Assembly (NCBI RefSeq): GCF_002266855.1
Contig: NZ_NGJN01000006.1
Location: forward strand, 1 to 64,000
Source of the DNA: Winogradskyella aurantia
Lineage (GTDB): Bacteria; Bacteroidota; Bacteroidia; Flavobacteriales; Flavobacteriaceae
DNA length: 64,000 bases
Direction: 5' to 3'
Position 1 is the stretch's first letter; each line of letters starts with the position of its first letter. A program made the position numbers and the translations under genes. Below, piece after piece: positions 7,397-62,988 of this stretch. The notes beneath the pieces were generated by a model. The model was not told the DNA's origin and ran no database searches. It worked only from the letters and a program-made list of their open reading frames with translations.

Positions 7397-8122
7397 TTAT
7401 TCTGTTCCATCGGGTTGTTCAGATTGTTTTAACCTTATGGATTTTTCTAATTTTCTGCCGTAGAAGGACTTCTTAATTCTATCTGTTAAACCATTGTAAA
7501 TAGAATCAATAAATATAGGATTGGCATTAGGAATTTCATAATAGGCTAGGTATGGCGAAACTTCACTGTCATTATGATTTAACGCATATTGAATGGTATA
7601 GGTGTATTTTCGTTTTAAAAGTGCCTCTGTTCTTTTGTTTAAAGAGTCAATCAAAGTACTATCACTGTTTTTATAAGCTAAAAATTTAGCTTCAATTAAG
7701 TCTAGGTTTTCATCATTAAATCGTCCCATAACATCCAAATAATCTTCTAATAGCTTTTGCTGCTCAGAGCCTTTAATGTCTACATCAAAACTAAAATTTT
7801 TTAATGTTGAGGTAATCTCAGTAACTCCTTCACTGGCAAAGAAAGGAATGAAATGTTCTTCACCATCATTTTTAAATAATTTAAGATATAGTAAAATAGG
7901 TTCTTTAATATTGGTTTGTAAAACAAATTCTGGTTGACCAGTAATCACAACAGAATCTAGGTTTACCAGAGTAGAGTCGGAATCTTTCTGCAAATACAGA
8001 ACACCTTTCTTTAAGCCCTTTACCTTACCTTTTAGGGTGAAATTGTTAGTGTTATTTTGGCCACAGGACGTGACTAATACAATTACAAATATAATTCCTG
8101 CTATTTTGTTTATTTTTTTCAT
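7397..8122 (-). CDS. DUF4369-type lipoprotein
   Basis: 241 residues. An N-terminal lipobox VTSC gives lipidation at C20. Residues ~28-115 have the beta-rich DUF4369 pattern (LKGKVKGLKKGVLYL, then DSTLVNLDSV), found in Bacteroidota lipoproteins and at the N-terminus of thioredoxin-like proteins. Residues ~120-230 are helical and lack a thioredoxin CxxC. Location is envelope; the function is unknown. It is 46 nt downstream of the DUF819 gene on the same strand and likely co-transcribed. Confidence 0.8.
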   Translation of the reverse strand: MKKINKIAGIIFVIVLVTSCGQNNTNNFTLKGKVKGLKKGVLYLQKDSDSTLVNLDSVVITGQPEFVLQTNIKEPILLYLKLFKNDGEEHFIPFFASEGVTEITSTLKNFSFDVDIKGSEQQKLLEDYLDVMGRFNDENLDLIEAKFLAYKNSDSTLIDSLNKRTEALLKRKYTYTIQYALNHNDSEVSPYLAYYEIPNANPIFIDSIYNGLTDRIKKSFYGRKLEKSIRLKQSEQPDGTE

Positions 8123-8168
8123 GTACTACATTAAATTAAAAAGGCAATTATGTGAATATTTAGAATTA

Positions 8169-9479
8169 CTAACCACCTGCGGCTAGTTGCATTAGTATGG
8201 TACAGCCAATGGCTGCAATTGTACCTACAGCATACCCAAGCACTGCAAGTAGCACACCAACAGTAGCTAAGGAGGGATGAAAAGCCGATGCAACAATAGG
8301 AGCGGACGCTGCACCGCCAACATTAGCTTGGCTACCCACGGCTAAGAAAAAATAAGGGGCCTTTACCAGTTTTGCCATGAAAATCAGTAACAGTGCATGG
8401 ATGGACATCCAGATTAAGCCTACAACGATTAAGCCAGGAGATTCAAATACGGAGCGGATATCAATTTTCATACCTATAGTAGCGACTAATATATAAATGA
8501 AAACACTTCCGAATTTACTGGCACCTGCACCTTCGTAATTCTTGATTTTTGTGTAGGATAATAAAATGGCAATAATCGTTGAAATACTTATCATCCAAAA
8601 GAACTTTGAACCAAGAAAAGTGAGCATATTTCTCACTTGTACTGAGTCGATATTAGCAACCACACCATCAAAATAGGGGCCTAAGAATGATGCACCCATA
8701 TGGGCAAAACTTACAGCACCAAAGGCAATTGCGGCGATAATCATTATGTCAGTGAGTGTTGGGTTGCGTTTAACGCTTTCGGAAAATGAAGAAACCTTCT
8801 CTTTAAGTTCCTCTATTGAAGAAGTGTCTGCTTTTAACCATTTATTGAACATATTGCGTCTTCCAATGCCTATAAGGATAATTGCCATCCAAACATTAGC
8901 GACAAAGATATCCACAAACACCATTTTGCCATATTCCGATTGATTATACCCGTAGATCTCTAACATGGCCGTTTGGTTGGCACCACCACCTATCCAACTT
9001 CCTGCTAAAGTAGAGAGTCCTCGCCAAACGGCATCTGGCCCTGTTCCTCCAATTACATCCGGAGCTATAGTGGCCACAATTAAAATGGCAATTGGTCCAC
9101 CAATAACAATACCCAATGTTCCAGTAAAAAACATGATTAGTGCTTTCCAACCCAAATTAAAAACAGCCTTTAAATCGATACTTAATGTCATTAAAACCAG
9201 AGCAGCGGGTAAGAGATAACGACTGGCTACATAGTACAGGTTAGAGCTGTGTTCTACGACCTCACCAGATGCTGAGACAGTTGACCATTCAGCAGCAATT
9301 AATCCTGACGTTGTGAGCAGCGCCGGTACCATGTAGGCCATAAATAGACCTGGAACAATTTTATAAAATTTTTCCCAAAAGCCGCCTTTTAATGACTCCG
9401 TATAGAAGACAAATCCTAGAGCCAACATTAATATGCCAAATATTATGGTGTCGTCTGTGAAAAGTGGTTGATTTCCCAT
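8169..9479 (-). CDS. DUF819 family integral membrane protein
   Basis: 436 residues with about 11-12 hydrophobic segments spread over the whole length. Signature stretches include GGTGPDAVWRGLSTL, GSWIGGGANQTAM and the C-terminal VGGAASAPIVASAF, characteristic of DUF819 (YjcL-like), a family with a transporter-like fold. The substrate is not established. It precedes the DUF4369 lipoprotein with 46 nt between and follows the terminator of the RHH operon. Confidence 0.88.
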   Translation of the reverse strand: MGNQPLFTDDTIIFGILMLALGFVFYTESLKGGFWEKFYKIVPGLFMAYMVPALLTTSGLIAAEWSTVSASGEVVEHSSNLYYVASRYLLPAALVLMTLSIDLKAVFNLGWKALIMFFTGTLGIVIGGPIAILIVATIAPDVIGGTGPDAVWRGLSTLAGSWIGGGANQTAMLEIYGYNQSEYGKMVFVDIFVANVWMAIILIGIGRRNMFNKWLKADTSSIEELKEKVSSFSESVKRNPTLTDIMIIAAIAFGAVSFAHMGASFLGPYFDGVVANIDSVQVRNMLTFLGSKFFWMISISTIIAILLSYTKIKNYEGAGASKFGSVFIYILVATIGMKIDIRSVFESPGLIVVGLIWMSIHALLLIFMAKLVKAPYFFLAVGSQANVGGAASAPIVASAFHPSLATVGVLLAVLGYAVGTIAAIGCTILMQLAAGG

Positions 9480-9522
9480 GTTTAAGGTTTAAAGGCGCAA
9501 AATACAAAAATTAGATACTAAA

Positions 9523-9547
9523 AAAAGTGACCTTTTTAGTCACTTTT
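9523..9547 (-). terminator. Intrinsic terminator of the SPFH-RHH operon
   Basis: On the minus strand the stem AAAAGTGA/TCACTTTT begins within the stop region of the RHH gene and is followed by a T run. It closes the five-gene operon before the DUF819 gene. Confidence 0.75.
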
Positions 9548-9728
9548 GTTCTTCGTCTTCCTTTTTAATACGTTTTGTTTTAGGTGTCCTGTTATGGTCT
9601 TTAAGGGTTTGCATCAACATCCATTCTATTTGTCCATTGGTACTGCGAAATTCATCAGCAGCCCATTTTTCAATAGCTTTTAGCATATCTTCATTCACGC
9701 GCAATGCAAAGGCTTTTTTCTTAGGCAT
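9540..9728 (-). CDS. Arc-like ribbon-helix-helix DNA-binding protein
   Basis: 62 residues. A basic N-terminus and short beta strand (KAFALRV) are followed by helix A (DMLKAIEKWAADEF) and helix B (TNGQIEWMLMQTL), the order of Arc/MetJ ribbon-helix-helix proteins. The strand residues would contact the DNA major groove in the dimer. Its start codon overlaps the hydrolase stop by one base (TAATG), giving translational coupling as last gene of a five-gene operon. The neighbour is not a recognisable toxin, so a regulator of its own operon is more likely than an antitoxin. The candidate operator is the 11-bp direct repeat at 12230-12247. Confidence 0.82.
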   Translation of the reverse strand: MPKKKAFALRVNEDMLKAIEKWAADEFRSTNGQIEWMLMQTLKDHNRTPKTKRIKKEDEEQK

Positions 9729-10669
9729 TATTTACTTTTTATAAATTCTGTAATTTCAGCAACAAGATGCTTAGATAATGGAAATTCGCTTGAGCTATAG
9801 GATTTTAAATTATCCTCATCATTGTCAATAGTCTTCAGGACATGGTTCATATTTTCAATTAGGACCAATTTTGATTCTGGATTGGCCTTGTGGAGTAGTT
9901 CGGCTTCGGAGGTTTTAACTTGTAAGTCTTTAGTTCCGTTTAGGATTAAAATGGGAATTTTAATCTTTTTAATTTCTTCAGAGGGAATATAGTTTATATA
10001 GGATATTAAGAATTCATGGTTTTGTTTGGCGAACAACGATATAAGCATGGGATTAACCTCCTTAATTGATCCCGTTGCCTTCAATTCACTGAAATGTTCC
10101 CTAGTAGTATTGCCTAATACCTCACTTTGAGCAGTGACTTGTTTAACAATAGTTTTATCAGCGGATTCTCCTAAACCTGATACGGAAACAAAACCATCAA
10201 TATGCTCAGAGATGGCTAACATCCCTACCAAAGATCCTTGACTGTGACCAATTAACGTTATGGAATTGAAGCGCTTGTCATTGCCAAAATGATTTATGAT
10301 TGTTTCTACATCATCCACCAAATCTTCGAATATAAAATGCTGTGTCAAAAATTTTATATTAGATGGTGTTACATTGCGCTTATCGAAACTGTAGAAGGCA
10401 ATTCCGTTTTGGTTCAAGCTATCTCTTAAACTTTTTATATAATTTGCCTTAATCCCTAAGGCAAGTTGATTTCCATTTCTGTCTGGATTGCCAGAGCCTT
10501 GAATGAATATCGCTAAAGGCTGCTCTTTTTTATCTGCCTTGTAAGTTAGTGTTCCCGGTAACTGTATGCTATCATTCATCAGCAAAATATCTTCTGATAA
10601 GACACTGGATTGAGAGAACACTGAAAAAGGTGTTGATAAAAGGAAAAGTAATAAATACGATATTCTCAT
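9728..10669 (-). CDS. Exported alpha/beta hydrolase (serine esterase-like)
   Basis: 313 residues. A signal peptide (1-20, ending VFSQ) is followed by an alpha/beta-hydrolase core: oxyanion-type QGSGNPDRNGN near 57-67, nucleophile S143 in GHSQGS, acid in LNGTKDLQV and His in ENMNHVL. Expected location is the periplasm or outer envelope; the substrate is unknown. It is the fourth gene of the SPFH operon, 10 nt after DUF1648 and overlapping the RHH gene. The gene at 12462-13388 is a close paralogue sharing the same catalytic motifs in the same order. Confidence 0.88.
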   Translation of the reverse strand: MRISYLLLFLLSTPFSVFSQSSVLSEDILLMNDSIQLPGTLTYKADKKEQPLAIFIQGSGNPDRNGNQLALGIKANYIKSLRDSLNQNGIAFYSFDKRNVTPSNIKFLTQHFIFEDLVDDVETIINHFGNDKRFNSITLIGHSQGSLVGMLAISEHIDGFVSVSGLGESADKTIVKQVTAQSEVLGNTTREHFSELKATGSIKEVNPMLISLFAKQNHEFLISYINYIPSEEIKKIKIPILILNGTKDLQVKTSEAELLHKANPESKLVLIENMNHVLKTIDNDEDNLKSYSSSEFPLSKHLVAEITEFIKSK

Positions 10670-53866: not shown

Positions 53867-54514
53867 ATGGTTAAACATTACGCGCTTGTTGTATTTGTTT
53901 TAGTTTTCAATTTTTCATGTTTTTGCCAGCAACTGTACATTGAATTGGGAACAACCGTCTCCTCCTTTGATTATGAAAATTCTCAAGGACAACCTCTAGA
54001 CAATTTACTATCCACGTCAAAAGGCTATTTCGGAATGGGGTATAGACAGAGCATAAACGATGCAAATACCTTGTTTCTTTTGCTTGGTGCTACCTATAAC
54101 AATTATGGCGCTATTGGCAGTGAAGCTAGTGTAGACAATTTTTTTGAGTGGGATGTGAGTTATTTAGGCGTAAAAGCCGGCTTAGGTATAAAATTGTTTG
54201 AATTGAGGGACCTCACGTTTTTTCTAAATACCTCAATAGCTACGGAATTTTTGGTTCGAGGTACGCAAACAATAAACAATGATGTATTTAACCTGGTTGG
54301 AGAAGAAGAGTTTAACAATACTATTTTTTTCTTTAGAGGTGGTTTAGAGATGCAGTATCCTATTTCAAGAAGTACGGCACTTTTTGTAGGATATAATTAT
54401 GGGTCATCAGTATTGATAAGCAGCGGGGAGAATAGTGAAAAACTAAATCTGAAGGCGCACCAATTTGGCCTAGGTTTTATAATCAACCTTCCCAAGTGTT
54501 ACTGTAGCTATTAA
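53867..54514 (+). CDS. Small outer-membrane beta-barrel-like exported protein
   Basis: 215 residues. A signal peptide (about 1-21, ending FCQQ) is followed by alternating strands with aromatic residues (FGMGYRQS, LFLLLGATYNN, FVGYNYG, LGFIINLP). This suits an 8-strand OmpA/OMP_b-brl-type barrel, though a plain secreted protein is possible. It opens a co-directional group of five exported proteins and is bracketed by TGGACAAATGG-type repeats. Confidence 0.7.
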   Translation: MVKHYALVVFVLVFNFSCFCQQLYIELGTTVSSFDYENSQGQPLDNLLSTSKGYFGMGYRQSINDANTLFLLLGATYNNYGAIGSEASVDNFFEWDVSYLGVKAGLGIKLFELRDLTFFLNTSIATEFLVRGTQTINNDVFNLVGEEEFNNTIFFFRGGLEMQYPISRSTALFVGYNYGSSVLISSGENSEKLNLKAHQFGLGFIINLPKCYCSY

Positions 54515-54530: not shown

Positions 54531-54552
54531 TGGACAAATGGTGGACAAATGG
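54531..54552 (+). repeat. Perfect 11-bp tandem repeat (TGGACAAATGG x2)
   Basis: Two identical consecutive 11-bp units, one helical turn apart, between the barrel gene and the next T9SS gene. Related to 53787-53803. It could be recombinase arm sites or regulator half-sites; neither is shown. Confidence 0.6.
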
Positions 54553-54612
54553 CCTAATATTATTATAGACAAGAATTTAATTATAGTTTTAAAATATCAA
54601 TTCCGAATTAAA

Positions 54613-55122
54613 ATGAGAACATTTCTTCAAATTCTAATCCTATTGTGTTCTGTGCAAGTCTTTCAGGCACAGGATAATTCGGGCTACCGTATCATGCGAT
54701 CAAATGTAGGTAGCAGTGGCTCTTCGCAGACGGTTGTAACCTCAAGTGGCACCTACAAAATAAGTCAAAGTATAGGACAGGCCAGTGTTATAGGTACGCA
54801 TTATAATAATGGTTATTATTTGAGACAAGGCTATCAACAACCCATGCATAAAATTAAAATTGTAGAAGAATTTGATTTAGATCTAAATGCAAAAATATAT
54901 CCCAACCCTTTTAGCCAAACTATAAGGATTACGTTCAGTTCTAAAATTGAAGAGGACATTTCTGTAAAGATTTTTGATATACATGGTAGAATTGTCCATG
55001 CCCAAGAGTTTTTACCTGCTCAAAACCTTGAACTGAGACTAAATGATATTTCAAGTGGAAGCTATTTTTTAAAGACGATTTCTAAAGGAAAGCGCTTCAC
55101 CGCAAAACTGATTAAATTTTAA
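54613..55122 (+). CDS. Short T9SS type A sorting-domain protein
   Basis: 169 residues from the ATG at 54613, which opens a clean signal peptide (1-20, VFQAQ); the upstream ATG at 54538 would add 25 non-signal residues. Residues 25-75 are a Ser/Gly-rich beta module (YRIMRSNVGSSGSSQ, ISQSIGQASVIGTH, GYYLRQGYQQP), a recurring flavobacterial type. Residues ~90-169 are the T9SS domain (KIYPNPFSQTIRITF, FLKTIS, AKLIKF). It lies 14 nt before the large repeat protein, so they are likely co-expressed. Confidence 0.85.
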   Translation: MRTFLQILILLCSVQVFQAQDNSGYRIMRSNVGSSGSSQTVVTSSGTYKISQSIGQASVIGTHYNNGYYLRQGYQQPMHKIKIVEEFDLDLNAKIYPNPFSQTIRITFSSKIEEDISVKIFDIHGRIVHAQEFLPAQNLELRLNDISSGSYFLKTISKGKRFTAKLIKF

Positions 55123-55136
55123 AAAAACCAGCAATT

Positions 55137-57302
55137 ATGAAAAGACTATTACTAACCTTAGGATGCTTCATTTGCTTAGCATGGCAAATGTTTGCCCAAA
55201 CCGATGGCATTACGTATCAAGCCGTGATAATTAGTCCGGACCCTTTGGAATTACCAGGTGTGGATTCCGAAGGCAATTATTTGCCAAACACCACCATTGC
55301 TATCAGATTTACCATTTACGATAGTGGCAATCAAATAGAATTCCAAGAAGTACAAATTACAGATACCGATGAATTTGGACGTATCAACCTGCTAATTGGT
55401 GATGCGGATCACGATTATTTCAAGGAAATAAGCTGGGATGGCACACCAAAGGACTTAAAGGTAGAAATTGATTTTGATGCAGGGAATAACTTTGAAACCA
55501 TGAGCCGAGAACGTCTCACGTTTTTACCTTATGCCTATCACCGAAATATTACGGCAACGGGCACCTTAACGGTAGATGACAGAACATTTTTAAATGGCGA
55601 ACTGCAAGTGGAAGGCCCAACAAATTTGCAAAGTACCTTAGACGTTAACAATGGTAACGCTACTAATTTAACGGGAACCTTGAATGTAGATGGTGTCAGT
55701 GATTTTAATGAGGCCCTGAATGTCAATAATGGCAGCCCCACAACACTTTCTGGCGATGTAACCATTGGAGGGAATAGTGTTTTAAATGGCACTTTAGATG
55801 TTATTGGTATGACTACACTAAATGACTTAACGGTTAATGGTGAGGCTAGTTTTGGGGATTTGGCAGCAGAAACACTTTTGGTTAATCAAAGTACAATCTT
55901 AAATGGGACTACCCGCATTGACGGTATGGGAAGTCAGATTCATTTGACATCAAATTTCCCTAACATTGGGACTGACATAGCTAATCATCCGGTATTAATT
56001 GATGGCGGTAAAAATGGTTTAGCGATAAAGGTGAATGGTAACCGTGAAAACGATACAAATTTTATAACCTTCTTTGATGATGCCCGAATTGAACCATGGG
56101 GACGCATAGAGGGAGAAACCGAAGCGGAGTTTACAAATAATGCCGACTACAATTTTGACAAGCGGTCGTTAAATTATGATTCCTATGATGCCATTTTTGA
56201 TACGTCGGTATCTGCTTATGAGTTTGCCAAATCTTTAGGGGAGATCGGTATAGCATCCACATCATCTACTGGGTGTGTTGGTTTTGGTGCCTGTGTTACC
56301 GCTCCAATACCATCTTGGATCATAGGTAGTACTGCTCAATCTATTGTTGCGGCACTTCAAATTGTTGCATCTGCGGTAGGTGTCGTTATTACCCAAGATA
56401 ATATTAACACTTATGACGATAATAGAGTAACCCTCCAAGGCGTAACTTATGCTTCAGGTGCAGGCGATTACGCGGAATATTTACTCAGAGAGAATTACAA
56501 TGAAAAAATGACCTACGGTGATATCGTGGGTGTAAAAGGTGGTAAAATATCGAAAAATCTTGAAAGTGCAGATAGAATGATGGTTGTATCATACAAACCT
56601 ATAGTTTTAGGAAATATGCCAAAGCCAGATCGTGAAGCAGAATATGAGAAGGTCGCATTTATGGGTCAAGTACCCGTCAATGTTTTTGGAAAGGTTGAAA
56701 TAGGCGATTATATTTTGCCTAGTGGTAAAAATGATGGTGTAGGTATAGCAATAAAACCATCAGATATTGTCGCTTCCCAACTTAAGAACATCGTCGGAGT
56801 AGCCTGGTCGCAAACTGATAATACTTTTGGAATCAGTAAGGTTAATGTTGCAGTTGGAGTTAATAAGAATGATAGTGGCCTAATAATCGAAAAATTAGAA
56901 AATAAAGTAAACCAACAAGCAAGAGAAATCACGACTTTAAAAAATCAAATAGAAAACATTTTAGTTAAGATCGCTGCGATAGAAGAAGGTGCAAACGAAG
57001 GCCAGCTAAGATTAAACTCAAATACTGATGAACATCAGAATAATTCAAAATACAAAATTATTGAATCGACAGAAAGTGATATCATTTATTATGACATTAC
57101 TAGAGATGATTTTGAAAAGGGTTTGCTTTTGGCTGAAGAAATGATTCTTGGTGCTGATGTTAAAAATGAAAAAGTCATAGAGGCTCTCAATAAACTTAAA
57201 ACGGACTTAGCATTTAAGAATAAATTTTTTAAAAGAATTCAAGATGGATTGAGCAAGCAAATTCACTTTCATCAAGAAATTGATAAAAAAGGAAGACATT
57301 AA
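55137..57302 (+). CDS. Exported beta-repeat protein with Peptidase_G2-like (autocleavage) segment
   Basis: 721 residues. Signal peptide 1-21. An N-terminal beta domain at about 22-145 (DGITYQAVI, ERLTFLPYAYH). About 146-260 are G-x-L-x-V-x-G-x-T-x-L-x-x-x-L repeats of a trimeric beta-fibre kind. A hydrophobic helix-like stretch (IVAALQIVASAVGVVI) lies near 400. Residues ~439-560 begin SGAGDYAEYL and continue with KISK, SADRMMVVSYKPIVLG, resembling the Peptidase_G2 domain of phage neck/tail appendages. A coiled coil follows (about 582-620), then a helical tail. No T9SS sorting domain is visible, so the export end-point is unclear. G2 function is inference. Confidence 0.75.
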   Translation: MKRLLLTLGCFICLAWQMFAQTDGITYQAVIISPDPLELPGVDSEGNYLPNTTIAIRFTIYDSGNQIEFQEVQITDTDEFGRINLLIGDADHDYFKEISWDGTPKDLKVEIDFDAGNNFETMSRERLTFLPYAYHRNITATGTLTVDDRTFLNGELQVEGPTNLQSTLDVNNGNATNLTGTLNVDGVSDFNEALNVNNGSPTTLSGDVTIGGNSVLNGTLDVIGMTTLNDLTVNGEASFGDLAAETLLVNQSTILNGTTRIDGMGSQIHLTSNFPNIGTDIANHPVLIDGGKNGLAIKVNGNRENDTNFITFFDDARIEPWGRIEGETEAEFTNNADYNFDKRSLNYDSYDAIFDTSVSAYEFAKSLGEIGIASTSSTGCVGFGACVTAPIPSWIIGSTAQSIVAALQIVASAVGVVITQDNINTYDDNRVTLQGVTYASGAGDYAEYLLRENYNEKMTYGDIVGVKGGKISKNLESADRMMVVSYKPIVLGNMPKPDREAEYEKVAFMGQVPVNVFGKVEIGDYILPSGKNDGVGIAIKPSDIVASQLKNIVGVAWSQTDNTFGISKVNVAVGVNKNDSGLIIEKLENKVNQQAREITTLKNQIENILVKIAAIEEGANEGQLRLNSNTDEHQNNSKYKIIESTESDIIYYDITRDDFEKGLLLAEEMILGADVKNEKVIEALNKLKTDLAFKNKFFKRIQDGLSKQIHFHQEIDKKGRH

Positions 57303-57339: not shown

Positions 57340-60300
57340 ATGAATAAACAGCTTTCGTTATCAGTCGTTATTTTATTGTTTTCTTCCCTTTTTATGGAGG
57401 CCCAAACTACGTCGATACCAGATGCTGATTTCGAAGAGTATCTAGAAACACATTCATCGGACGGCACTGTGGTTGCTATAGGAGACGCTAACAGTATGGG
57501 TGACGGTATTGCCAATAATGGATTGGTTGAAACTATCAGGATAAATAATGTGACCTTACTTGACGTTTCTAATCGCGGTATAGACGATCTTACTGGTCTA
57601 GAGGACTTTACAGCATTAGAAACCTTGTTTTGTAGTGAGAATAATTTGTCAGTTCTCAATGTTTCAAATAATACTAATCTGGTATCCTTAATTTGTGGTT
57701 CAAATAATCTTACGGAATTAGTTTTAAGCGCTAATACCAATCTAGAATCCTTGAACTGTTCAAACAATCAAATTCAGACCTTAGACCTTAGTAACAATGA
57801 CGCATTAGAAAGCCTCACCGTTTCAGGTAATCAGCTCTCCGCTATTGATATCTCAAATATGTCTGGTTTGGTCACCTTGGGTGTTTCAAATAATAGAATA
57901 TTCGGCCAATTAAATGTAAGCAATAACCCAAATTTAGAAGGATTGTTTTGTGCGTCTAACCAAATAAGCGTCTTGGATTTATCACAGAATACCGTTTTAA
58001 GAAATTTAGATGCTTCTAACAACGCCCTTACTGACTTAGACTTATCTAGTATCAATACGGTTGTTTGTCCAGATCCTCAAACGAACCCTATCACACCTTG
58101 CCAAGGTTCGTCCTCAATCAATATATCAAGAAATCAACTCGTTTCATTGGTGGTAAACAACGGTTTTAACGATTTAATTGCTCAGTTAAATAGTTCTGAT
58201 AATCCTGATTTGTTCTGTATTCAAATTGATACTGACTTTACACCTTCAGGTTGGATTAAGGATGATTGGACCTACTATAGCTCAGGCGCCTGTGTGGATA
58301 TTTTCACTTATGTGCCGGATGATAATTTTGAACAAGCTTTAATTGATTTAGGGCTTGATGATTTTTTGGATAATCTTGTTTTAACGGCCAATATCAATAC
58401 TATTGCAAACTTAACGGTTTCCAATGCATCGATTTCAAGTCTTGTAGGTATTGAGGACTTCACAGCCTTAGAAAATTTAGATGTTGGTACTAATACGATT
58501 GAAAGTTTAGACCTGTCAGCTAACACAGCCCTGCAGGTATTGGATATTTCAAATAATGATATTGAAACATTAGATTTAACTACAAATACCGCATTAACCA
58601 CCTTATACTGCGGAAGTAATTTGCTCAATACTATTGATTTAAGTGCTAATCTAGCATTAACTGTAGTCAATTGCTCCAATAATCTGTTAACCGGTTTAGA
58701 TGTAAGTAATAATACCGACTTGTTTGATTTAGATACCTCGTTTAATCAAATTACATTCTTAGATTTAAGTTTAAATACCGCACTTACAAGTCTTTTGTGC
58801 AATGATAATAACCTGTTCGCCCTTAATATCAATAATGGAAATAACAACACCATCACCACATTTAACGCTACAAATAATGCAAACTTATTCTGTATCGAAG
58901 TTGAGGATGTTGCTCTGGCCAATGCTGCCGCTGGCTGGCAAAAAGATACTCTAGCAGACTATAATTTAACTTGTGGGACATACGTGCCCGACGATAATTT
59001 TGAACAGGCCTTAATCGACCAGGGCATTGATTCGGATAATACTTTAAACAATTTTGTGCCGACAGCTGATGTTAGCGGTGTTTCTGATTTGGATATATCC
59101 AGTCTTGGTATTGAAGACCTGACAGGCCTTGGAGATTTTGTAGCCTTGCTTGATTTGGACTGTTCTGGCAATGCAATTTCAGTTTTGGATTTAAGTTCTA
59201 ATACGGCCCTGCAAACTTTAAATTGCTCAGACAATAGCATCAACAACCTTGAACTTGCAACAAATGTAGGGTTGACATCAATAGTTTGTAACGACAATGC
59301 ACTGGTAACATTGAATATCGCAAATGGATTTAATACTAATCTTGCGGTCTTTAATGCCACAAACAACCCAACGTTGTTCTGTATTAATATCGATACAGCC
59401 ATTTTAGGCAATATCCCACCAGCTTGGCAAATTGATGTTTTTGCTGATTATAACGATGATTGTGCAAATAACCGATTTACCGCCATACCAGATCCCTTTT
59501 TTGAACAAGCATTGATTGATTTGGCTTATGATGATGTTATTGATGGCCAAGTTCTAACGGCCACTATTGAGCTAGTCCAAAATTTGAATGTCAGTGACCA
59601 AGGCATTTCGGATTTAAGCGGTATTCAAGATTTTAGGACAATAGTGGAATTGGATTGTAGCAGTAACTTTCTGACTGCTTTGGATGTTAGTGGTTTAAGC
59701 TTTTTGGAGCGCTTGAATTGTAGTTCAAATTTTCTTGAAACAAATGACAGTAACAATCCCGGTGGTTTATTTAATATCACAGGAACCATAAGCTTGAAGG
59801 AACTCTTTTGTGCTAGCAATAATTTAATTGATCTTGACACGTCGCAAAATATAAATTTAGAGCTATTAGATTGTGCGGATAATAGTTTAACGGTTTTAAA
59901 TGTCAATAGTAACACACTTTTAAAAAATCTTAATTGCTCCAACAATGCCTTGTCTAGTTTAGATATAAGCAGTAATGCAGCCCTAGAAGTCCTCAATGCG
60001 GATAGTAATGAACTCATTGAATTATTAACCCCAGGAATTCCAAATAACAGCTTAATCAATTTAAGTTGTGCCGACAATGATTTGACTGAATTATTAGTCA
60101 ATAATTATCAAGGATTAGAAAGTTTAAACTGTGGGTCAAACGCATTGACAGAGCTTAATTTGACCGCTAACACGGGCCTAAACTTTTTATCCATTACCAG
60201 CAATCAAATTTCTGATCTAAATTTATTGAACAACATAGATTTAGTAGAGGCATTACTTTCCCAAAATAATTTATTACAATTAGATGTTTCTGCCAATACA

Positions 60301-62988
60301 TCTTTAGAGCATCTTAACTGTGCATTTAACGACCTTACGGAACTCAACATTGATTTAAATACCCTATTAAAACGCCTTTATGGTGCTTCAAACCAACTTA
60401 CAGCATTGGATTTGAGTAACAATAGTGGCCTTATAGATTTTGATTTTAGCTCAAATGCCATAAATAACTTAAGCCTGTCTAACGACCTCGGTGCATTGAA
60501 ACGACTTAATGTAAGCAACAACCAAATTGAAGGTAATTTAGATTTAACCACAATGGCAATTGCGGCCTGTGTGGCCCAACCCACTCAAACAAATTTTTGC
60601 CCAGACACAATTTCTATAAATGTTTCTAACAACCTTTTGGATTTTGTAAATATTCAAAATGGTATCAATGGAGATATAGCGAATTTGAATGCGGTTAATA
60701 ATCCAAACCTGGAGTGTATCCAAGTTGATGATGCCAATACTATCGGCGCAAATTGGCAAAAAGACGAAACGACATCTTATAGCGAAGATTGCAATTTTGG
60801 TGAAACCTTTGTGCCCGATGATAATTTTGAACAGGCACTTATAGACTTAGGATTGGATTCAGGACCCTTAAACGATTTTGTACCGACCGCAAACATAGAA
60901 GGCCTTACCAATTTGGATGTCAGTGGTAATGCCATTGCTGATTTAACTGGCATAGAAGATTTCGTAGCCTTGGAAAGTTTAGATGTTTCTAATAATGTGT
61001 TGAGCGATGTTGAACTCAGTTCGAACATAAATTTGGTGAGCCTCAATTGTGCAACTAACCTATTACCTCAATTGAATATTCAAAATAATTCAAATTTAAT
61101 GATTTTAAATTGTGCTGAAAATTCCATAAATACAATCGATGTTACGGCCAATATAAACCTGACGGATTTAAATATTTCAGACAATGTATTCACTGCTTTT
61201 TCGCCAAGTGAGGTGTTATCCTTACAAGTTTTCAACTGTGATAATAACCAAATTATAGAACTCAATTTTCAACAAAACCAGGATTTAATAAGTCTTAGCT
61301 GTCAATCCAACACTTTAGAGATTCTTAATATTAGAAACGGGCAAAACGCCATTTTGATGGATTTAAATGCGCAGGGCAACCCAGAATTGACTTGTATTGA
61401 AACAGATGATGGTAACGTACCACCAGGCGCCACTTGGCTTATTGACCCAACGGCTCAATTTTCCACAGAGTGCTTTTTTGGGCAAACTTTTGTGCCAGAT
61501 GATAATTTTGAGCAGGCCCTTATCGATTTGGGTTATGATTCGGGCGCTTTGGATGACTATGTATTTACCGAAACTATTCAAGACCTCACTTTTTTGAATG
61601 TGAGTGGCCGTGAGATTTCAGATCTAACAGGTATCGAAGACTTTATAAGTTTAACCACTCTTGATTTTGAAAATAATTCTGTGGCTGCAGTGAATTTAGC
61701 GTCTAATACAAATCTAATTAATTTGGATGCCTCAGGAAATCTACTGACCGTCATAGACCTATCATTTTTACCAAACTTGACGGACTTGGATGTTTCCAAT
61801 AATAACTTAACGCAGCTGAGTTTAGATAGTAATCTAGGCTTAATTGATTTGGACGTAGCCAACAATGCACTGACCAATTTGACTGTTGGCCAACAGGTTG
61901 ATTTGGAAGAACTCAATTGCGCATCGAACCAATTGAGCAGTCTTAATGTCACCCAAAACCCAAATTTAACCCTCTTGTTCTGTCAGTCCAACCAATTAAT
62001 AGCAGATCAACTTAATCTTCAGAACGGGAACAATGAAAATTTACAATTGTTCAATGCTACAAATAATCAGGATTTAGCCTGTATTTTAGTCGATGATCCT
62101 GTGGCGGTTATCAACAATACAGAAGGGTTTTACGACAGTTGGTTTAAAGATGAGACAGCTAGTTACCAATCCGTATGTGCGGATGCTGATAATGACGGCA
62201 TACCAAATGAGGATGATTTATGTCCCAATACCGAATTTGGTGCGACGGTAGATTTGTTTGGTTGTGCTGTAATCGATTTGCCAAATGATAATTTTGCCGT
62301 TTCAGTTACAAGTGAAACCTGCTTAAATAGCAATAATGGTATAATAACTATAATTGCGCAAGAACTTTATAATTATAACGTATCACTTGTACGTGATAAC
62401 TTTTCGCAAGATTATAACTTTACGAATGACATAGACATCTTTAATCTTTTGGCAGGAACTTATGAGATGTGCATTACCATTGAGGAGTGGCCCGATTACC
62501 AAAGTTGTTACACCATTGTTATTACCCAACCAGACCCACTAGAAGTATTTTCAAATAGAATGGCTTCAGGAAATATTTTATCTGTAATTATGACGGGCAA
62601 TTCCAAATACAATATAGAATTTAACGGGGACCTCTTTACGACCTATAATCCAAGTATTAACTTAGAATTGCAACAAGGGGTAAATAGCTTAAAGGTGTAT
62701 ACAGATTTGGACTGTCAAGGCATCTATCAAGAACGCATAGTCCTCTCAGATGAACCTATCGTAACACCAAACCCGTTTAACAACCGACTTAGTATTTATA
62801 CCAATTCCAATAATGAAGATATTATTGTACATATCTATAATATATTTGGGCAGCGCGTTCTGAGTGAGACTTTCAATCATCATACGAATGATATTCAAAT
62901 AGACACCAACCGATTAGCGGCTGGAATGTACCTGATGGCAATACAAACCGATAATGAGACGACGACCCATAAAATTATAAAAGAATAA
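57340..62988 (+). CDS. Giant leucine-rich-repeat T9SS surface protein, six modules
   Basis: 1882 residues. Signal peptide 1-22 (FMEAQ). Six modules each start with an N-cap of the form VPDDNFEQALIDLG (first copy divergent; others at nt 58312, 58984, 59485, 60811, 61492). Each continues with ~21-residue LRRs (L-x-x-L-x-C-S-x-N-x-L-x-x-L-D-L-S-x-N) and closes with a C-cap N-P-x-L-x-C-I-x-V/I-D/E-D then W-x-K-D-x-x-x-x-Y-x-x-x-C. Near 1616 a thrombospondin-3-like DADNDGIPNEDDLCP follows. The last ~75 residues are a T9SS type A sorting domain (TPNPFNNRLSIYTN, GMYLMAIQ, HKIIKE). A surface adhesin or binding scaffold is expected. Confidence 0.92.
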   Translation: MNKQLSLSVVILLFSSLFMEAQTTSIPDADFEEYLETHSSDGTVVAIGDANSMGDGIANNGLVETIRINNVTLLDVSNRGIDDLTGLEDFTALETLFCSENNLSVLNVSNNTNLVSLICGSNNLTELVLSANTNLESLNCSNNQIQTLDLSNNDALESLTVSGNQLSAIDISNMSGLVTLGVSNNRIFGQLNVSNNPNLEGLFCASNQISVLDLSQNTVLRNLDASNNALTDLDLSSINTVVCPDPQTNPITPCQGSSSINISRNQLVSLVVNNGFNDLIAQLNSSDNPDLFCIQIDTDFTPSGWIKDDWTYYSSGACVDIFTYVPDDNFEQALIDLGLDDFLDNLVLTANINTIANLTVSNASISSLVGIEDFTALENLDVGTNTIESLDLSANTALQVLDISNNDIETLDLTTNTALTTLYCGSNLLNTIDLSANLALTVVNCSNNLLTGLDVSNNTDLFDLDTSFNQITFLDLSLNTALTSLLCNDNNLFALNINNGNNNTITTFNATNNANLFCIEVEDVALANAAAGWQKDTLADYNLTCGTYVPDDNFEQALIDQGIDSDNTLNNFVPTADVSGVSDLDISSLGIEDLTGLGDFVALLDLDCSGNAISVLDLSSNTALQTLNCSDNSINNLELATNVGLTSIVCNDNALVTLNIANGFNTNLAVFNATNNPTLFCINIDTAILGNIPPAWQIDVFADYNDDCANNRFTAIPDPFFEQALIDLAYDDVIDGQVLTATIELVQNLNVSDQGISDLSGIQDFRTIVELDCSSNFLTALDVSGLSFLERLNCSSNFLETNDSNNPGGLFNITGTISLKELFCASNNLIDLDTSQNINLELLDCADNSLTVLNVNSNTLLKNLNCSNNALSSLDISSNAALEVLNADSNELIELLTPGIPNNSLINLSCADNDLTELLVNNYQGLESLNCGSNALTELNLTANTGLNFLSITSNQISDLNLLNNIDLVEALLSQNNLLQLDVSANTSLEHLNCAFNDLTELNIDLNTLLKRLYGASNQLTALDLSNNSGLIDFDFSSNAINNLSLSNDLGALKRLNVSNNQIEGNLDLTTMAIAACVAQPTQTNFCPDTISINVSNNLLDFVNIQNGINGDIANLNAVNNPNLECIQVDDANTIGANWQKDETTSYSEDCNFGETFVPDDNFEQALIDLGLDSGPLNDFVPTANIEGLTNLDVSGNAIADLTGIEDFVALESLDVSNNVLSDVELSSNINLVSLNCATNLLPQLNIQNNSNLMILNCAENSINTIDVTANINLTDLNISDNVFTAFSPSEVLSLQVFNCDNNQIIELNFQQNQDLISLSCQSNTLEILNIRNGQNAILMDLNAQGNPELTCIETDDGNVPPGATWLIDPTAQFSTECFFGQTFVPDDNFEQALIDLGYDSGALDDYVFTETIQDLTFLNVSGREISDLTGIEDFISLTTLDFENNSVAAVNLASNTNLINLDASGNLLTVIDLSFLPNLTDLDVSNNNLTQLSLDSNLGLIDLDVANNALTNLTVGQQVDLEELNCASNQLSSLNVTQNPNLTLLFCQSNQLIADQLNLQNGNNENLQLFNATNNQDLACILVDDPVAVINNTEGFYDSWFKDETASYQSVCADADNDGIPNEDDLCPNTEFGATVDLFGCAVIDLPNDNFAVSVTSETCLNSNNGIITIIAQELYNYNVSLVRDNFSQDYNFTNDIDIFNLLAGTYEMCITIEEWPDYQSCYTIVITQPDPLEVFSNRMASGNILSVIMTGNSKYNIEFNGDLFTTYNPSINLELQQGVNSLKVYTDLDCQGIYQERIVLSDEPIVTPNPFNNRLSIYTNSNNEDIIVHIYNIFGQRVLSETFNHHTNDIQIDTNRLAAGMYLMAIQTDNETTTHKIIKE

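Follow-up and report, generated by a model that had tools for sequence, protein, structure and literature searches.

Does a flavobacterial host use a phage-type domain to fold a fibre and then cut that domain away? This question is raised by a gene at positions 55137..57302 of the window, the 64,000-nucleotide stretch of Winogradskyella aurantia DNA analysed here (NZ_NGJN01000006.1, positions 1 to 64,000; all window features given below lie on the + strand). At exactly the coordinates given in the preliminary description of this DNA, the gene is an intact open reading frame (ORF); it has an ATG start, encodes 721 residues and is single-copy, since a search of its own 3.2-Mb genome at E <= 1 returned no paralogue. 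Its nearest named relatives come from Paucihalobacter, Winogradskyella, Hyunsoonleella, and Jejuia. By profile, predicted fold and motif, the protein carries a homologue of the Peptidase_G2 (G2) domain. We propose, with a probability of roughly two in three, that it is a secreted trimeric fibre which would be folded with the help of its G2 chaperone, the chaperone then cutting itself off.

A Peptidase_G2 domain in the fibre protein

The G2 domain spans residues 435-578 (56439..56870), as placed by profile, alignment, and predicted fold. The preliminary description had likened this region to Peptidase_G2 and suggested a profile comparison. The PF11962 (Peptidase_G2) match to the fibre (27.6 bits, E 2.4e-6; gathering score 25) falls into two stretches, of which the best covers residues 421-493. 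It exceeds the cut-off by a narrow margin, and with the bacterial domain PF11962 reaches the limit of what it can detect: the cut-off was passed in 6 of 60 relative genomes, though the orthologue is present in 11 of the 60. Of eight distant G2 fibres scanned whole, one scored above the cut-off, three scored below it, and four gave no match at E <= 0.01. Among 14 control genomes, only that of B. subtilis matched PF11962. A single-sequence phmmer search of the fibre against the PDB found no match, an NCBIfam scan found no domain match in the protein, and a PHROGs scan returned noise only.

Further results agree with the near-threshold assignment. First, all 18 members of a family alignment matched PF11962 at E <= 0.1, the window member with 26.1 bits. 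Second, comparison by hhalign of 14 aligned bacterial sequences with ten phage domains, picked from 116 matching records, gave 96.7% probability (E 4.1e-10) over 93 columns that include both domain halves and lay DYAE on DFAE. Third, a G2-only model built from bacterial sequences alone reached a predicted local distance difference test (pLDDT) score of 81.6 and a predicted template modelling (pTM) score of 0.78. In a Foldseek search of 350,542 chains, ranks 1 and 2 for this model were the phi29 gp12 structures 3suc and 3gqh (E 2.2e-4 and 3.6e-4; template modelling scores 0.54-0.55). The same chains, in the same order, ranked first for a larger model of residues 290-721 (E 2.9e-3 and 1.1e-2), which at pLDDT 61.0 and pTM 0.38 is too poor to interpret outside the G2 domain, the module at residues 293-434 included. 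A PDB profile search with the 14-sequence bacterial alignment placed the chaperone of Dpo31, a phage tail spike, at the top as a weak match (E 0.0043). Together with the conserved D-x-x-E motif described below, these results bear out the proposed likeness to Peptidase_G2.

Foldseek ranks 3-20 of the G2-only model were capsid proteins of several tailed viruses and gp8.5, the base of the phi29 head fibre. The capsid proteins are trimeric decoration proteins that are not known to cleave. The closeness of the G2 model to these capsid proteins and to the gp8.5 base may mean that chaperone domains and capsid decoration domains share an origin. The phage G2 profile also matched chain cU of PDB 8h2i (1343 residues, named P22, E 9.1e-25), which places the domain in a further virus structure, that of a large algal virus. 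According to PMC13397572, gp12 has been assigned to the same fold class, gpD-like.

Two other candidate assignments were rejected. Peptidase_S74 (PF13884) was not matched in the fibre protein, nor anywhere in its own genome. Matches to Herpes_UL6, SlyX, FlaC, and other coiled-coil-type Pfam and PHROGs entries were below cut-off or weak, and were attributed to composition noise.

A conserved predicted cut site in a compact domain

From residue 440 the fibre reads SGAG/DYAEYL (S440, D444, E447), in line with the preliminary description, and D444 and E447 occupy the places of D692 and E695 in phi29 gp12. The bond Gly443-Asp444 (56463..56468) is thus the predicted self-cleavage bond, equivalent to Ser691-Asp692 of phi29, and Glu447 (56475..56477) is the equivalent of Glu695. 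The spaced motifs listed earlier, K-I-x-K (GKISKN), S-x-D-x-M-x-V-V-S (SADRMMVVS), and P-x-V-x-G (PIVLG), were also found.

Available structures locate the phage cut. Two PDB chain ends share one bond, with 3gq7 ending at S691 (..NTWS) and 3gqh beginning at D692 (DFAEYFE..), and the mature gp12* tassel comprises residues 101-691 (PMC6542822). The chain 3suc, titled pre-mature, reads DFAQYFE, i.e., it carries E695Q, a change absent from the other chains. In Dpo31 of Cobetia phage Carin-1, the chaperone domain D4 was traced from Asp664 and is lost from the expressed protein (PMC13317679); in the numbering of our PDB profile search, Asp664 is the Asp of the DYAE motif of Dpo31 and is preceded by Ala.

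The motif D-[YF]-A-E is present in every one of the 43 distinct bacterial domains whose sequence includes the site. The full bacterial set has 44 domains, of which one (L047) was omitted because its ORF call begins past the site, and it was gathered by other patterns or by profile, with D-[YF]-A-E not used as a query. All ten selected phage domains contain D-x-x-E. The residue before the bond (P1) varies, being A in 22, G in 20, and N in one of the bacterial domains, and S, S, Q, A, A, A, F, A, A, and S in the ten phage domains. Since P1 is variable in phages, the Gly of the window protein is no argument against cleavage.

Judged by alignment, the segment joining the two halves in phages (NP...R-x-x-R-x-EW, conserved in the phage set) is missing from the bacterial G2 domain, which is thus a compact variant, a point absent from the preliminary description. 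The missing segment may include part of the ATP site. In phi29, an ATP-dependent step has been reported for the release of gp12 after cleavage (PMC13397572). An exported protein meets no ATP pool, and therefore cleavage by the bacterial domain, if it works, should be ATP-free.

Layout of the fibre protein

The preliminary description had placed a signal peptide at the N-terminus, beta-fibre repeats upstream of the G2-like domain, and a coiled coil downstream of it. The first two agree with our reading by eye: residues 1-20 (55137..55196) resemble a Sec-type signal peptide, MKRLLLTLGCFICLAWQMFA/Q, cut before Q21, and residues 139-290 (55551..56006) form putative beta-stalk repeats of ~20 residues each with L-x-V-x-G or L-x-G-x-L patterns. 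The intervening N-terminal adaptor domain of 120 residues (GITYQAV ... LPYAY; 55197..55556) resembles the corresponding domain in further exported, fibre-like proteins from the order. Between the stalk and the G2 domain lies a conserved module at residues 293-434 (56013..56438), in which a part reading GLAIKVN ... GRIEGE is succeeded by long helices in the low-confidence model.

The coiled coil, at about residues 580-625 (56874..57011), is suggested by a long helix in the same model and by a heptad count in which, for the best among many registers, 90% of the a/d positions were hydrophobic across 35 residues starting near residue 584. The C-terminal helical tail, residues 645-715 (57069..57281), is kept in orthologues and recognisable in homologues of the Ignavibacteria type. 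As noted before, the protein has no C-terminal sorting domain of the type IX secretion system (T9SS), in that neither PF18962 nor TIGR04183 was matched in Pfam and NCBIfam scans.

The fibre gene lies among T9SS cargo genes

The fibre carries no T9SS signal, yet its gene is flanked on both sides by genes for T9SS cargo, a point absent from the preliminary description. The upstream neighbour (54610..55122, or a longer gene if it starts at 54538) stops 14 bp short of the fibre gene and encodes a small T9SS type A cargo protein of 170 residues, consisting of a region that runs from SQSIGQ to GYYLRQGYQQP and the T9SS C-terminal domain (CTD). It is preceded by a gene for an outer-membrane beta-barrel-like operon partner (53867..54514), whose match to PF13505 (E 3.8e-5, 24.4 bits) is below the cut-off of 28.7. 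Downstream, 37 bp after the fibre gene, begins the gene for a giant leucine-rich-repeat (LRR) protein of 1882 residues with a T9SS type A CTD (57340..62988).

This order, beta-barrel, small T9SS cargo, G2 fibre, and giant LRR T9SS cargo, recurs in every one of the ten flanked Flavobacteriaceae loci (L031-L040), the giant LRR gene thus being kept throughout. The other seven loci of the same search (L041-L047) have only the G2 gene in common, and some of them end at contig ends. An identical set of 11 of the 60 genomes contains the strong matches for all three smaller genes, with E <= 1e-139 for the fibre, E <= 1e-56 for the small T9SS protein, and E <= 1e-99 for the beta-barrel. Scanning the operon for promoters and terminators yielded no excess over shuffled sequences (38 vs 39.3 and 5 vs 6.3, respectively). 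By eye, the giant LRR protein is built of several repeated LRR blocks, most of which start with a VPDDNFEQALID-like segment, and another T9SS gene lies just beyond the window (G000 C16:64907-65131).

A distant set was formed from all G2 loci of a scan across the phylum except the window and the orthologue in genome G011. It comprises 13 loci outside the Ignavibacteria type (L136-L148; 14 fibres in 10 genomes) and five loci of that type (L132-L135 and L149; six fibres). Each of the former 13 loci has a T9SS type A gene, scoring above the TIGR04183 cut-off, that is adjacent to the fibre gene or one gene off. This gene directly precedes the fibre gene in L136, L137, L140, L143, L146, and L147 and directly follows it in L142, L144, L145, and L148, with overlapping ORF calls in L145 and L148. 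In L138 and L141 it is one gene off, separated by a beta-barrel-like gene with 44% and 27% identity, respectively, to that of the window, and in L139 a T9SS protein of 1037 residues is encoded about 400 bp past the second of two tandem fibres. The W. aurantia genome has 40 T9SS places in 3.2 Mb, which at ~1 gene/kb is roughly 1 to 2% of genes; by this estimate, which uses longest-ORF gene calls and the density of a single genome, chance would yield far fewer than 13 of 13. Outside the Ignavibacteria type, G2 fibres generally have a T9SS gene nearby.

A similar adaptor precedes a different self-cleaving chaperone

Seventeen loci resemble the fibre only in its N-terminal domain, and eight of these were scanned. 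Five carry Peptidase_S74, two of them with YadA_head repeats; two carry Fib_succ_major, and one gave nothing. By eye, the S74-type relatives have a coiled-coil-like end after the chaperone. YadA heads are trimers, and the G2 fibre of L145 also has a YadA_head match above cut-off. From their domain matches, two phage-type self-cleaving chaperones of different profile appear to share the same place behind a similar adaptor. To us, this swap is the best indirect indication that selection may act on folding with subsequent self-cleavage.

The small T9SS profile was matched near L012, L014, L021, L024, L028, and L029, the match being downstream in L029, and L024 and L029 belonging to one genome. 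L021 ends in Fib_succ_major and not in G2 or S74, and thus T9SS pairing may extend past G2 fibres. Around 205142-209775 of contig C5 in genome G025 (L021, L028) there are two tandem gene pairs, in each of which a small T9SS-type protein is encoded ahead of an exported protein whose N-terminal domain is similar.

Folding, self-cleavage, and alternative readings

In the mechanism that we propose, the chain would be exported by Sec, and three chains would join through the G2 domain and the following coil, which together would act as a folding clamp for the beta-stalk. The heptad coil, and the YadA_head in L145, are indirect support for such a trimer. Once the trimer is correct, Glu447 would promote the cut between Gly443 and Asp444, and the C-terminal 278 residues, i.e., the G2 domain, coil, and tail, would depart. 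Cleavage would run without the ATP-linked release step proposed for phi29. The mature fibre would consist of the N-terminal domain and the stalk and would be retained on the cell. Because it has no sorting signal of its own, the adjacent T9SS cargo and/or the beta-barrel, together with the N-terminal domain, would be its likely surface partner or anchor.

Several observations weigh against this reading. Seven of the eight distant fibres are missed or under-scored by PF11962. The fold is common to tailed-virus capsid proteins, so that fold alone is no proof of cleavage. The segment between the domain halves of phages is absent from the bacterial form, and the G2 domain is not at the extreme C-terminus, since it has some 140 residues of coil and tail behind it. 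As to the partner, adjoining T9SS genes are no proof of physical contact, and a T9SS neighbour was seen at none of the five Ignavibacteria-type loci. At E <= 0.001, moreover, the co-occurrence of the operon genes blurs, with matches to the fibre in 21, to the small T9SS protein in 57, and to the beta-barrel in 14 of the 60 genomes. Finally, the small T9SS profile was not matched in the flanks, of about 1.5 kb or less, of the five S74-type loci. Taken with the matches near other loci, this suggests that T9SS pairing belongs to the G2 type and some others, and not to the S74 type seen here.

The chief rival takes up some of these points. It holds that the G2-like domain is an uncleaved trimerisation and folding domain, so that the whole 700-residue chain would stay and the coil and tail would form a distal tip or an anchor. 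This would fit the fold match to tailed-virus capsid proteins and the phi29 head-fibre base, the loss of the inter-half segment, and the presence of a coil and a conserved tail, which may give the C-terminal part a job of its own. However, D-x-x-E is invariant in 43 of 43 bacterial domains while P1 and several flanking positions vary, and it is a self-cleaving chaperone, S74, that replaces G2 behind a similar N-terminal domain, likewise with what looks by eye like a coiled-coil end. We consider this rival unlikely, though it deserves serious weight beside the self-cleaving fibre.

It is also conceivable that the fibre is cleaved but that the released piece of G2 domain, coil, and tail is the active product, e.g., a secreted trimeric ligand, with the stalk acting only as its carrier. 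Conservation of the tail in orthologues, and its recognisable form down to the Ignavibacteria-type homologues, would agree with such a role, but the fibres of L139 and L140 end shortly after the coil, so the tail is not always needed. We regard this variant as improbable.

The fibre gene looks bacterial

At E <= 0.01, tblastn with a 321-residue module of the fibre (residues 290-610) matched none of 50,697 phage and 72,556 plasmid records, and a scan of viral contigs yielded 30 pattern stretches but no relative of the module. Among 395 genomes drawn from the whole phylum, 16 contain the module, its own included, and named Ignavibacteria and Kapaibacterium records also carry it. No phage structural genes were found within the four-gene operon. 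The fibre gene thus looks bacterial and not phage-borne, and a prophage or plasmid origin was rejected on the searches together with the conserved operon. Phages are the most familiar source of the domain family, but it is highly improbable that the gene was recently acquired from a phage, or is the tail-fibre gene of a prophage remnant, when its module is unmatched in phage, plasmid, and viral-contig searches yet found in 16 of 395 phylum genomes, in a four-gene operon that is conserved across genera and has no phage structural gene.

The preliminary description had suggested a host surface fibre matured by a phage-like mechanism. Of this, what stands is a real G2 homologue, borne by a protein that is apparently exported and is encoded in a host operon, with no phage match of its module; the surface location and the cleavage keep the standing of predictions.

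Relation to known self-cleaving chaperones

The window protein shares with the C-terminal domain of phi29 gp12 (PF11962; 3GQH, 3SUC) the profile, the predicted fold, and the D-x-x-E of the cut site, and in addition the K of the GK[IV] strand, the GQ of the second half, and the place after a beta-rich fibre. In contrast to gp12, it is host-encoded and apparently exported, has Gly and not Ser at P1, lacks the inter-half segment, and continues with a coil and a helical tail. The D4 domain of Dpo31 (PDB 28LX, 28NB), described as a trimeric auto-chaperone, is alike in its DYAEY motif and in a P1 residue other than Ser, namely Ala; it differs in belonging to a phage tail spike and, by the authors' account, in retaining the phage segment and most ATP-site residues (PMC13317679). 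In both phi29 and Dpo31, but not in the window protein, G2 is at the extreme C-terminus, a feature that lies outside the Pfam definition.

Peptidase_S74, the trimer-dependent self-cleaving chaperone of endosialidases and of the eukaryotic proteins MyRF and MrfA, does the same job (PMC8326128, PMC3828593) with a Ser-Lys mechanism and another profile, and its bacterial relatives have an N-terminal domain similar to that of the window protein. In MyRF, a coiled coil behind the S74 chaperone drives trimerisation (PMC8326128), and this layout resembles the window protein, in which a coil also follows the chaperone. The fibre stands apart from T9SS type A cargo (PF18962, TIGR04183), to which both of its immediate neighbours belong, in having no CTD itself.

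The domain family and the idea of a self-cleaving chaperone are already known, and G2-domain proteins have been named in Bacillaceae genomes (PMC10674732). In the literature examined, protein data on G2 come from phage fibres. A compact, exported, T9SS-paired Bacteroidota branch of G2 was not found in the limited literature searched, and protein databases may already name such proteins. If the proposed mechanism is true, this host-encoded, T9SS-linked Bacteroidota G2 would show that a large beta-fibre can fold without ATP once outside the cytoplasm. It would further mark out a class of surface fibres that have no T9SS signal but are encoded with T9SS cargo, testable by one point mutation. More tentatively, Bacteroidota may possess a wider class of cell-surface fibres in which G2 or S74 self-cleaving chaperones are swapped behind one kind of adaptor, the G2 kind being delivered by, or docked on, an adjacent dedicated T9SS cargo, with compact, ATP-independent G2 cutting outside the cytoplasm. 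We would at present bet against this generalisation as a whole, though not heavily.

Neighbours and ends of distant fibres

Five of the six Ignavibacteria-type fibres are followed directly by a protein of 327-361 residues that ends in ETRPxN..., and one of three such proteins scanned was just above the cut-off for a phage tail collar domain (24.2 vs 24 bits). The sixth fibre (L149) is followed by a different protein of 260 residues. In L145 and L148, the fibre and the protein of the upstream gene (L145:6968-8596 and 8666-9889; L148:5864-7597 and 7566-8954; all on the - strand) end alike by eye, the fibres having a hydrophobic C-terminal stretch and a basic tail reminiscent of a membrane anchor. 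If these ends anchor in the membrane, self-cleavage would release the fibre, as in MyRF.

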